DNA from: Cytophagales bacterium | GTDB taxonomy: Bacteria > Bacteroidota > Bacteroidia > Cytophagales > UBA9547 | Reading direction: 5' to 3' | Length of the DNA stretch: 64,000 nt | NCBI GenBank assembly: GCA_013297755.1 | Contig: JAAFIH010000007.1 | Coordinates: forward strand, 62,001 to 126,000 | The notes under the pieces: model-generated | Database searches by the model: none | What the model was told of the DNA's origin: nothing | Seen by the model: only the letters and a program-made list of their open reading frames with translations | Position numbers and translations under genes: made by a program | Part shown: piece by piece, positions 31,287-54,490 of the stretch | How positions within the stretch are numbered: position 1 is the first letter of the stretch | Layout of the letters: each line of letters starts with the position of its first letter

Positions 31287-31405
31287 GGGAACTTCTAAAA
31301 ACCCATAATTTAATTTCAAAAACCCCACCCAAACCAATTTCTGTTACGATGCCACAGAATCCAAGAGGGAGGGCTCTATAGGAATTAGGGTTTTTAGAAG
31401 TTCCC
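31287..31405. repeat. family A palindromic element
   Basis: Ends GGGAACTTCTAAAAACCC and GGGTTTTTAGAAGTTCCC are perfect inverted repeats, flanked on both sides by TTAA (a possible target duplication). The interior has ACCCCACCC and CCACAGAATCC, as in family C. It lies upstream of ftsY. Confidence 0.88.
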
Positions 31406-48117: not shown

Positions 48118-48216
48118 AACCGAAAAATTAAAATTACATTCTTATAATTTTTCTCCCACTTGGGGAGAAATTAAAAGAGGGGTTTAAAATAAAATTGTAA
48201 TATTTGTTTTTCGGTT
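48118..48216. repeat. palindromic element, family E
   Basis: AACCGAAAAA (48118) and TTTTTCGGTT (to 48216) are inverted ends; the inner flanks pair partly as well. The interior has TCTCCCACTTGGGGAG and AGAGGGGTTT, like the interior of the element at 31072. It lies between the FtsE-like gene and the type ISP gene. Confidence 0.6.
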
Positions 48217-48275: not shown

Positions 48276-51200
48276 ATGTCATTAGATTCAATCCTACAAA
48301 AATACAGAACAAACGCCACCTCAGAGCGCGATAAAGGCAATATGTTTGAAAAACTAATGCTCGCTTATTTGCAAACCGACACTTTTTATGCTACCAAATT
48401 TAAAACTATATGGCTTTGGAACGATTTTCCTGCTCGCTAAGAATTAGGAAGTGTAGATACTGGCATAGACCTGGTGGCTCTTGAACAAAACGGTGATTAC
48501 TGGGCTATTCAATGCAAATTTTTTGATAAAAATACCACTATCGACAAACCTGCCGTAGATTCTTTTTTATCTACATCGAGCCGTAAATTTACAAATACCA
48601 ACAACCAAACCGTAGAATTTGCACACAGACTCTGGATTTCTACAACCAACAACTGGGGCACCAATGCCCAAGAAGCCATCAAAAACCAACAACCACCCGT
48701 AACTCGCATTAGCTATACTGACTTAGAACAATCTGCCATTGATTGGCAAAAATTAGACGCAGGAAATATTGGCGAAAATGCTAGACTTACTCAAAAATCC
48801 CTTTTCCCTCACCAAGAAGTGGCTCTAAATGCCGTGCACGAGCATTTCAAAACCAACGATAGAGGCAAAATAATTATGGCTTGTGGCACTGGCAAAACTT
48901 TTACCTCACTCAAAATTGCCGAAAACGAAACCAAACACTATCAAAATAACTCAAATACTGGCGGTTTTGTATTGTTTTTGGTGCCTTCTATTGCTCTTTT
49001 GGGACAAACTTTGAGAGAATGGATGGCAGAAGCTAGCCAAAACATCAATGCTATTTGTATTTGCTCTGATGCCAACGTGAGCAAAAAAAGTGCACAAAAC
49101 GATGATGGCGATATTAGTACCCTCGACCTTGCTTTGCCTGCATCTACCAATATAGAAAATATCATCAAACAACTGGAGTTTATCCAAAATTCAGAAAACA
49201 ATAATCTTACAGTCGTTTTTTCTACTTACCAATCCATTGAAGTAATTGCCAAAACACAAAACGAATTAATAAAAAAACAACTAACAAAAGCCGAAAATCA
49301 AACAGAAAATCAAACAATTGAAAGTATGGGAACTTCTAAAAACCTCAATTCCTTTGAAGCCCTCCCTTTTGGGGAGGGTTTGGGTGGGGCTTTTAAAAAT
49401 GAGTTTGGGGCTTTTAGAAGTTCCCATACTATTTTTGGGATTTTTGATCTGATTATTTGCGATGAAGCACACAGAACTACTGGTATTACCCTAAACAATG
49501 AAGATGCCTCAGCTTTTGTGCGTGTGCACAACAACGATTTTATAAAAGCAAAAAAACGCCTTTATATGACCGCCACACCACGTTTATATGGCGAAGATGC
49601 CAAATCTAAAGCCAATAGATATGGTGCTGAACTTTGTTCTATGGACGACAAAGAAATTTATGGCAAAGAAATTTATAGAATTGGCTTTGGCGAAGCAGTA
49701 GAGCGTGGGCTACTTTCTGATTACAAAGTGCTCATTCTTACTCTCAAAGAAGAAGATGTGCCGCAAGCAGTGCAAGATATGATTGCTGACGATGACGAAA
49801 TAAACACTGACGATGCCTCAAAACTCATTGGCTGCATCAATGCGTTTTCTAAACAACTGATTGGCGACAATACCATTGCAGAAACCGATCCTACACCCAT
49901 GAAACGTGTAGTGGCGTTTTGTAGCAAAATAAAAGATTCGCAAAATATTACCAAAACTTTTAATTCGCTCAACAACGCTTATTACAACAATTTATCCAAA
50001 GAAAAACAAGAAAAAATAGTATCTGTGGCTGCTCAGCACGTAGATGGCACCATGTATGCCATGGCTAGAGAAGAGAAATTGAGCTGGCTCAAAGAAACAG
50101 TAAACCAAGCCAACCAATGCCGCATTCTTACCAATGCTCGCTGCTTGAGCGAGGGTGTAGATGTGCCCTCGCTGGATGCCGTTATTTTTCTCTCCGCTCG
50201 CGATTCGCAAGTAGATGTGGTGCAATCTGTTGGTCGAGTGATGCGCAAAGCCCCAAATAAAAAATATGGCTACATTATTATTCCTGTGGTTGTGCCTAGT
50301 GCTATTTCGCCTGATACTGTGCTGGACGATAACCAAAGATACAAAATTATTTGGAGTGTACTCAATGCCTTGCGTGCCCATGACGACCGATTTAATGCCA
50401 CAATCAACCAAATAGAACTCAACCGCAAAAAACCACGTGCAATAAGTGTAGTATCCACACCAACAGGCACTGGCTCTGGCACAGATACTCAACCCAATTC
50501 TGATGTTCAAAAAGCCATAGAAAAAAAACTTGCCCTCCAATTTGAACAACTGCAAGGCGTGATTTTTGCCAAAATGGTAGAAAAAGTTGGCGACCGCAGG
50601 TATTGGGAACAATGGGCAACTGATGTAGCCCTGATTGCCGAGAAATATATAGATAGAATTACTATTTTGAGCAAAAAAACAAACTACCAACCCCATTTTG
50701 AGGCTTTTCTGGTAGGGCTGCAAAAAAACATCAATCCTGCCATCTCGCTAGAAGAAGCCATAGAAATGCTGGCGCAACATCTTATCACAAAACCTGTGTT
50801 TGAAGCACTTTTTGAAGGATATTCTTTTGTTAAGAGCAATCCTGTGTCTATTGCTATGCAGAAAATGGTGGACATTTTGGAAAATAAAGTCGTTGAAAAT
50901 GAAACAGATACACTCCAAAAATTTTATGAATCTGTCAAAAAACGTGCCTCTGGGATAGATAACGCTGAAGGAAAACAGAAAATTATTGTAGAACTTTACG
51001 ACAAATTTTTCAAAACTGCTTTTCCAAAAATGGTGGAAAAACTAGGTATTGTTTATACGCCTACGGAAGTGGTGGATTTTATTGTGCAGTCTGTTGATGT
51101 GGTGCTGCAAAAAGAATTTAATAGAAATATCTCTGACGAAAATATCCATATTCTTGACCCATTCACAGGAACAGGCACTTTTATTACTCGCCTGCTGCAA

Positions 51201-53345
51201 AGCGGACTTATCAAAACCAAAGACCTCAAACGTAAATTTACCAAAGAAATTCACGCCAACGAAATTGTATTGCTTGCCTATTACATTGCTGCTATCAATA
51301 TTGAAAATGCCTACCACGAAATAATAGAAAAAGAAGAAGAAACAAATTCAACAGAAAAAACCCCCGCAGAATACCAGCCTTTTAATGGTATTGTGCTAAC
51401 GGATACGTTTCAGTTGGGCGAAAATGACAATAACAACGAGCTTTTTTCTAAAATGTTCCCTGAAAATTCAGAGAGAGTTTTAGCCCAAAAGAAAGCTCCA
51501 CTACGCATTATTATAGGAAATCCGCCCTATTCTGTTGGGCAAAACTCTGCCAACGACAATGCCCAAAACCAAGAATATGAAAAACTAAACAGAAGAATTG
51601 ACGAAACCTACGCCAAAGCATCAAAGGCAAATTTGAATAAATCAAATTATGATTCTTATATGAAGGCTTTTCGTTGGTCGTCTGACCGTTTGGATAAAGA
51701 TGGGGGCATTATTGCCTTTGTTTCTAATGGCTCGTGGCTTGATGGAAATAGTACAGACGGTTTTCGCAAAACCATAGAAAAAGAATTTACGGCTATTTAT
51801 GTTTTTAATTTGAGAGGAAACCAACGCACAAGTGGCGAACTTTCTCGCAAAGAAGGCGGCAAAATATTTGGCTCTGGCTCTCGTACGCCTATTTCTGTCA
51901 CTTTTTTGGTCAAAAATCCAAGCATTACCACCGACAAAGCCACTATTTATTATTTTGATATTGGAGATTATTTGAGCCGTGAAGATAAATTGCAACGCAT
52001 CAAGGAACTAAAATCTGTGGAAAATATTGAATGGCAAATGTTGCAACCAAACACAGAAGGCGACTGGATAAGCCAACGAAATGATGCTTTTGCAGAACTT
52101 GTGCCACTTGCGCCTGACAAAAAATTTGATTTCAAAACTAAATCATTTTTTAATACATACGTGATTGGCGTAGCTACCAATAGAGATGCTTGGGTTTGTA
52201 ATTTTTCAAAAAACGAAATTGAAAAAAATATGACCCAAATGATTGACTATTACAACGAGCAACAAAAAGATTTTCAAATTGCAAAGCAAGAGAATGAAAA
52301 ATTAGATGTTGAAAGTTTTATAAATCAAGATGCGCTACAAATTAGTTGGACACGAGCATTGAAAAATGGTTTAGCAAATAATATAAAGCATCAGTTTGAT
52401 GAAAAATATTTTAGAACGAGTTATTATAGACCATTTTGTAAGCAAAAATTATATTTTGACAAACGGTTTATAGAAAGTCCTGGATTAAGTTCTCAACTTT
52501 TCCCAAACGCTGATTTAAAAAATATTGTGATTGGTATTTCTGGGGTTGGTGCGCAAAAGCCGTTTTCTGTGTTGGTTTCTAATCATATTACAGATTTGCA
52601 AGTGGTGGATAAAGCACAATGTTTTCCGTTGTATTATTACGAAGAGCGGGAGAAAATGCAGGGAAATTTGTTTGACAAAAGCAAGACAGAATATACCCGC
52701 AGAGATGGTATTTCTGATTTTATTTTGGGTTATGCCCGCCAATTGTATGGCAATACAGTAATGAAAGAGGATATTTTTTATTATGTGTATGGCATTTTGC
52801 ATCAGCAGGAGTATCGCACACAGTTTGAGAATGATTTAAAAAAGATGTTGCCACGTATTCCGCTGGTGGCGTTGGGCAAAGATTTTTGGCTGTTTAGCAA
52901 AGCAGGCAGAGATTTGGCTGGTTGGCATTTGGATTATGAAACCATAGAACCCTCAAAAGAAACTACTGTAGTTTTTAGAGCAACTAAAAATATCAATTAT
53001 CAAATAGAAAAGATGCGTTTTGGCAAGAAAAATGGCGTAGTTGATAAAACGGTGATTGATTTTAATAGTGAAATTACGGTAGAAAATATCCCTTTGGTGG
53101 CTTATGCGTATGTGGTAAACGGAAAAAGTGCCATAGAATGGGTAATGGAGCGTTATCAGAAAACTACGCACAAAGATAGTCAGATAAAAAATAATCCAAA
53201 TGATTGGTGTGCAGAGGTTGATAATGAGCGTTATGTGCTGGATTTGCTGCTTCGTGTGATACGTGTGAGCGTGGAAACGGTGGCTATTGTGGCGAGTTTG
53301 CCTGCGTTGGTGCTGGCTGGAGAGAAAGCCGAAGGGAATAATTAG
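48276..53345 (+). pseudogene. type ISP-like restriction-modification enzyme with an early stop codon
   Basis: A very large single-chain enzyme resembling the LlaGI/type ISP group. An Mrr-like nuclease has Asp65 and Gln79-X-Lys81. The helicase has MACGTGKT (about 201-208), DEAH (CDEAHRTTG, about 393), YMTATPR and VQSVGRVMRK. The methyltransferase has ILDPFTGTGTF (about 958) and GNPPY (about 1081), followed by a recognition region. ATG 48276 starts MSLDSILQKYRTNATSERDK, but codon 55 is TAA (48438-48440), just before the nuclease core. The frame then runs uninterrupted to 53345. Restart at GTG 48474 would lose Asp65 and so the nuclease. A palindromic element adds about 36 codons in frame before the DEAH box (49328-49435). 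Confidence 0.85.
49328..49435 (+). repeat. family A palindromic element inside a coding frame
   Basis: The ends GGGAACTTCTAAAAACC and GGCTTTTAGAAGTTCCC match the family A elements at 31287 and 54339. The 108-base length is a multiple of three and the read frame has no stop, so the type ISP gene is not interrupted. It codes for about 36 residues, roughly 352-387, rich in Gly, Phe and Ser. Confidence 0.9.
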
Positions 53346-54338: not shown

Positions 54339-54490
54339 GGGAACTTCTAAAAACCTCAATTCCTATGAAGCCCTCCCACTTGGATTCTGTGGCATGGGGG
54401 CAAAACGAAAGTTTTGAGCCAGGTTGTGAGGTTGTAAAATTGGTTTGGGTGGGGTTTTTGAAAATAAATTTGAGGTTTTTAGAAGTTCCC
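54339..54490. repeat. family A palindromic element, longest copy
   Basis: 152 bases with perfect inverted ends GGGAACTTCTAAAAACCTC and GAGGTTTTTAGAAGTTCCC. The interior has CCTCCCACTTGGATTCTGTGG (the CCACAGAATCC cassette in reverse). It also contains CAAAACGAAAGTTTTG, the reverse complement of the 16-mer at 28951. Confidence 0.9.

Follow-up and report, generated by a model that had tools for sequence, protein, structure and literature searches.

The 64,000-nucleotide stretch of DNA analysed here (the window) comes from a 4.24 Mb Bacteroidota genome in 70 contigs and carries a type ISP (LlaGI/LlaBIII-like) restriction-modification gene, which Pfam, PADLOC and an alignment of homologue N-termini place on the forward strand at 48276-53345, from a probable ATG to the stop codon. 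Pfam found the domains Mrr_cat_2, ResIII, Helicase_C, ISP_coupler, Eco57I and Type_ISP_C, and PADLOC matched the gene to Type IIG REase_MTase from profile position 68 of 1646. All the domains of a type ISP enzyme are present (Mrr-type nuclease, helicase, coupler, methylase and specificity), with the N-terminal nuclease split by an in-frame TAA at codon 55 (48438-48440, forward strand; ...WNDFPAR*ELGSVDTGID...) that was identified from the sequence, its translation and the homologues. The translation from the ATG at 48276 up to this stop, MSLDSILQKYRTNATSERDKGNMFEKLMLAYLQTDTFYATKFKTIWLWNDFPAR, aligns with homologue N-termini in the same frame, and most of the homologues compared have a lysine at the stop position. 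The TAA falls between the probable ATG and the PD-(D/E)xK residues, with TGID lying between the TAA and a GTG at 48474 and QCK just after that GTG. The 1623 codons that stay open from the GTG (48474-53345, forward strand) keep the helicase, coupler, methylase and specificity domains, and an earlier ORF call began at the GTG only because of the upstream TAA. Either the gene gives no full product, or it gives a product with a later start and no complete nuclease, or the TAA is a sequencing error.

Within this open part lies a palindromic element of what we term family A, whose 98-bp core (49328-49425, forward strand) was delimited by a pair of terminal inverted repeats (TIRs) and by alignment with 31 other copies. 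An earlier note on this DNA had given the element 108 bases, from 49328 to 49435, and about 36 added residues; its start stands, its 3' end overshoots by about 10 bp, and the addition comes to 34 codons. The TIR, GGGAACTTCTAAAAACC, is about 17 bp long and is found at both ends of most copies. Together with the flanks AGTAT and ATACT, the inverted repeat around the ISP copy forms an extended palindrome without strand at 49323-49430, in which the 26-nt arms (49323-49348 and 49405-49430) are 92% complementary, and the insert transcript is predicted to form a hairpin of -57.5 kcal/mol (z -9.1). The copy translates (frame offset 1) as GTSKNLNSFEALPFGEGLGGAFKNEFGAFRSS and is free of stops in the frame read, as the note had said, being open within the 1623-codon ORF. 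The two other copies that the note had listed as noncoding are both real and intergenic by alignment and flanks: a 119-bp form on the reverse strand (31287-31405) with the target site duplication (TSD) TTAA, and a 152-bp form on the forward strand (54339-54490). A second palindromic family, with arms AACCGAAAAATTAAAATTACATTCTTAT, is represented at 48118-48216, just upstream of the ISP gene.

Unlike most fresh copies, the ISP copy has inverted flanks and no direct 4-bp duplication, with GTAT on its left and ATAC on its right. Since there is also no close empty site, we infer the exact length of this insertion, which is consistent with a 4-bp duplication (98 + 4 = 102 bp, or 34 codons). The DCC1-like copy described below (L037 4088-4192) is likewise flanked by an inverted AGTTT/AAACT instead of a direct 4-bp duplication; the seeming excess of inverted 4-bp flanks comprises these two copies only.

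Absence of the segment from type ISP homologues

The element segment is absent from seven homologue loci of other organisms (Spirochaetia, Verrucomicrobia, Bernardetia and others) and from LlaGI and LlaBIII (PDB 5ffj, 4xqk), which share their domain order and a long homology with the host gene, whereas the latter has the insert and, in its nuclease domain, the TAA. Absence from every homologue examined indicates that the segment was inserted, in agreement with what the note had foreseen from such an alignment, and the equivalent segment that it thought unrelated homologues might carry was looked for and not found in them. The insertion site is a variable loop between the helicase motif STYQSI..Q and FDLIICDEAH, just before the DEAH box. 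This loop is short in the homologues and in both solved enzymes and about 50 residues longer here; 34 of the extra residues correspond to the element plus a 4-bp duplication, and a further dozen or so are non-element sequence that includes a 12-bp tandem repeat (GAAAATCAAACA twice). The peptide across the region reads NLNSFEALPFGEGLGGAFK, and in a low-confidence model from an 8-sequence alignment the insert forms a disordered loop that joins a helix to a strand (pLDDT about 31-40).

That pre-DEAH loop length varies among homologues could be read as a sign that type ISP enzymes had a variable loop here ancestrally, one that resembles a repeat by chance. We find this scarcely credible: the dispersed copies, which have full TIRs and share 93% DNA identity with the ISP copy, refute it, and the homologues have at most a short loop at this place. 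The same family of genomes yielded no close ISP orthologue and the MITE is specific to one genus (see below), so insertion in this lineage is the simplest explanation. An apparent ISP remnant in a congener (G002:C317) was rejected, as it had been chained by chance across murI and an intergenic element.

Family A in the genome, genus and phylum

A sequence search matched the element 46 times in the source genome (G000), and the TIR with at most one mismatch matched 60 times, compared to 2 for a reversed-pattern control. A census that combined a covariance-model search with nhmmer on fetched stretches of G000 and the congeners G001 and G002 gave 191 matches, 135 of them near full length (54 in G000, 2 in G001 and 79 in G002). 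Nearly all of these 135 are shorter than 160 bp with no transposase inside, and most lengths fall around 98 and 119 bp, forms of about 150 bp being rarer. An exact 4-bp direct repeat is present at the ends of 50 copies, where 8.6 would be expected and 1000 shuffles never gave more than 17, while no duplication of 5 bp or more was found among the 135; the target duplications are almost all A+T (TTAA, TAAA, ATAA etc.). Whole copies are confined to one genus among 59 related genomes searched, and a phylum-wide source search found the exact 17-bp TIR at one single site among 394 other Bacteroidota genomes sampled. Given its TIRs, 4-bp TSD signature and dispersed copies without transposase, family A is a MITE, that is, a non-autonomous TIR transposon, with more than 100 copies over two species.

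No IS-sized TIR pair enclosing a transposase was found in the fetched loci or the matches listed for these draft genomes. On contig 36, two TIRs separated by 1224 bp were considered as the ends of a parent IS and rejected, as they enclose no transposase, and single unpaired TIRs (C12, C22, C23:177252 and C15) were set aside as half elements or mosaics. At G000:C22:34847, a left half related to the AACCGAAAAATTAAAATTACATTCTTAT family is joined to a family A right end, and these fused halves suggest that mosaic elements exist. Another family A element (G002:C108:8582-8810, L092) is split by a different inverted-repeat element beginning AATGTCGTTAAGTTAAG, which shows that insertions of different families can be nested. 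At G000:C34 (L030, L031) and in a more distant genome, G017, the G+C-rich interior GCCCTCCC...GGGTGGGG is present but the family A ends are missing, and this interior may be an older shared repeat.

In-frame copies in other genes

The search for in-frame genic copies that the note had proposed turned up three more in the genome. A diverged copy lies in frame in alaS, the gene for alanyl-tRNA synthetase (G000:C9:25796-25893), ahead of the editing-domain HxxxH motif, where it encodes METLKNYNSVDSLSFGEGKGEVSNDKFGVFESFH. The corresponding site is empty in the alaS of G001, whose flanks are 84% and 80% identical in DNA and which differs by exactly 102 bp (34 codons). One alaS was found in G000, and since this gene is essential, the insert-bearing AlaRS presumably works. 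The model of its insert is likewise a disordered loop, flanked by a helix and a strand, with residues 553-585 below pLDDT 50 (low-confidence model, 8-sequence alignment). The two arms of the alaS copy (L119) share an identical pair of changes (GGAAACTTT), a pattern that would fit either a variant subfamily or correction between palindrome arms.

The second copy lies in frame in a gene for a DCC1-like oxidoreductase (PF04134; G000:C67:134091-134188). Orthologues in G002, G001 and G006 are without the insert, and the empty site in G002 differs by 34 codons. The third, a 119-bp form with the TSD TCAT (G000:C26:7090-7207; 123 bp with the TSD), sits in frame in the gene for a secreted protein of 1349 aa, where it falls within the apparent signal peptide, after the first residues and ahead of the hydrophobic part. 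A peptide-profile search of the whole genome gave no further long-frame case in that frame, two copies upstream of genes aside, and open frames at C1:57430, C70:63746, C7:18392 and C45:135685 were left out of the coding count, as each precedes a gene that has a better start further downstream. The alaS and DCC1-like copies, both outside the window, are more convincing as coding cases than the ISP copy, which is weakened by the TAA.

Reading frame and stop content

All four intragenic copies are in frame: those in the ISP gene, alaS and the secreted protein use one sense frame, and the DCC1-like copy uses the other sense frame, so no single peptide is conserved. Element length plus four is divisible by three in the 98-, 119- and 152-bp classes and in 84 of the 135 copies (about 0.62), and with about half of the frames open, perhaps one random insertion in three would leave an open frame. 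Four of four in frame against about one third expected fits selective loss of frame-breaking insertions. Genic copies make up 4 of the 54 near-full copies in G000, a count built on profile and pattern searches and fetched stretches that coding copies too diverged for these would escape, while ORFs of at least 150 aa cover 73% of the window, indicating a strong bias to intergenic DNA, either in where the element inserts or in which copies survive. Of the 79 copies in G002, none was found to be intragenic. The ISP copy has four of six frames open (P 0.05, dinucleotide shuffles), and the same shuffles gave P 0.14 and P 0.0035 for two other copies, the latter being a 119-bp form with 4 open frames; the absence of stops from the ISP copy is only mildly unusual.

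Because three to four of the six element frames are open anyway, an open frame in the ISP copy needs no selection, and together with the TAA in the nuclease domain this raises the question of whether the ISP gene is a pseudogene and the element junk in a dead gene, open by accident. We give this reading somewhat less than even weight, as the 1623 uninterrupted codons with all helicase, methylase and specificity domains mean that any decay is recent, and it leaves the in-frame alaS and DCC1-like copies unexplained. The ISP copy may be riding in a decaying gene or in a methylase/helicase-only product. The note was right that a mobile palindromic element, which has TIRs and is missing from every homologue examined here, sits in frame just before the DEAH box of a type ISP gene in Bacteroidota; its description as coding sequence in a defence enzyme holds for the in-frame insertion and may not extend to a full working enzyme.

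The lengths divisible by three after duplication, the P value of a 119-bp form and the four in-frame intragenic copies could also mean that the element itself was selected for frame-neutrality, through length plus TSD and several open frames, because some of its spread passes through genes. This appears rather unlikely: the length bias was inherited from few master forms and is not independent, the other forms gave P 0.05 and 0.14, no intragenic copy was found in the congener, and stops interrupt a sense frame in many intergenic copies. We consider it quite improbable that the insert is useful in the host protein as a regulatory loop, RNA hairpin or new interaction surface. The predicted transcript hairpin is very stable and the frame of the alaS copy has survived sequence divergence, but the models give a disordered loop, different genes use different reading frames, and the alaS frame must be kept whatever the insert does. 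No positive evidence for the usefulness of the inserts was found.

Relation to known elements

In-frame fusions of MITEs with genes are already known, with the Rickettsia palindromic elements (RPE) as the extreme case and ERIC, YPAL and the 107-bp Correia elements as others (PMC10969869, PMC2229807). RPE resemble family A as palindromes of about 100-150 bp that are found between genes and in frame in unrelated genes, including housekeeping genes, where the inserts are tolerated. However, RPE belong to a different phylum, and the family A TIR is limited to one Bacteroidota genus; the RPE TSD is listed as unknown (PMC2229807), in contrast to the clear 4-bp TSD of family A; and family A has far fewer coding copies (4 of 54), in two sense frames instead of one conserved peptide. 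On host phylum, genus-restricted TIR and TSD, we regard family A as probably a separate family, one whose likeness to RPE lies in behaviour and does not amount to membership, and the rickettsial parallel drawn by the note is to be kept to the behaviour of the four in-frame copies. ERIC/RU-1, YPAL/RU-2 and the 107-bp Correia elements (PMC2229807; Delihas 2007, PMC2759123) are likewise bacterial MITEs with open frames that fuse with genes; compared by description only, they differ in their hosts and from the ~17-bp TIR and 4-bp A+T-rich TSD of family A. BrickBuilt of Porphyromonas gingivalis is also a Bacteroidota MITE and, again by description only, is reported as strictly intergenic (PMC4596501), unlike family A. 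No report of coding MITEs in Bacteroidota was found in the literature searched, a search to which most subscription papers were out of reach. Family A joins a known class of in-frame intragenic MITEs, and its insertion in alaS is the case that we find of greatest interest.

Discussion

Taken together, it is very probable that a genus-private MITE inserted in frame into the ISP gene, and did the same in alaS, the DCC1-like gene and a signal peptide, as inserts that were tolerated. In the ISP case, the element would have been cut or copied into the gene by a transposase supplied in trans, after the lineage already had the gene. The 102 bp of element and duplication are divisible by three and the interior is G+C-rich and stop-poor, so the frame was kept and a 34-residue loop resulted, one that is probably disordered. 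With the TAA at codon 55, the ISP product would be lost or would start downstream without a complete nuclease. The coding copies would then be the tolerated insertions left once selection had removed the frame-breaking ones. A bolder version, which we hold to be unlikely, is that frame-neutral, stop-poor master forms (98, 119 and 152 bp, each plus 4) repeatedly lengthen host proteins by 34-41 residues, one of these proteins being an essential tRNA synthetase, and that the element was selected for harmless passage, a process of the rickettsial type that would have arisen independently in Bacteroidota.

The best-known mobile palindromes that lie in frame within protein genes are those of Rickettsia and Wolbachia, whose genomes are small and decaying, which offered a possible excuse. 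Here, a 4.2-Mb Bacteroidota genome has a 34-residue insert in its sole detected alaS at a site that is empty in a close congener, which makes for a case, open to dating and testing, in which mobile DNA has been built into an essential protein. Together, the four coding cases give a simple rule that can be tested, namely that element length plus target duplication is divisible by three.
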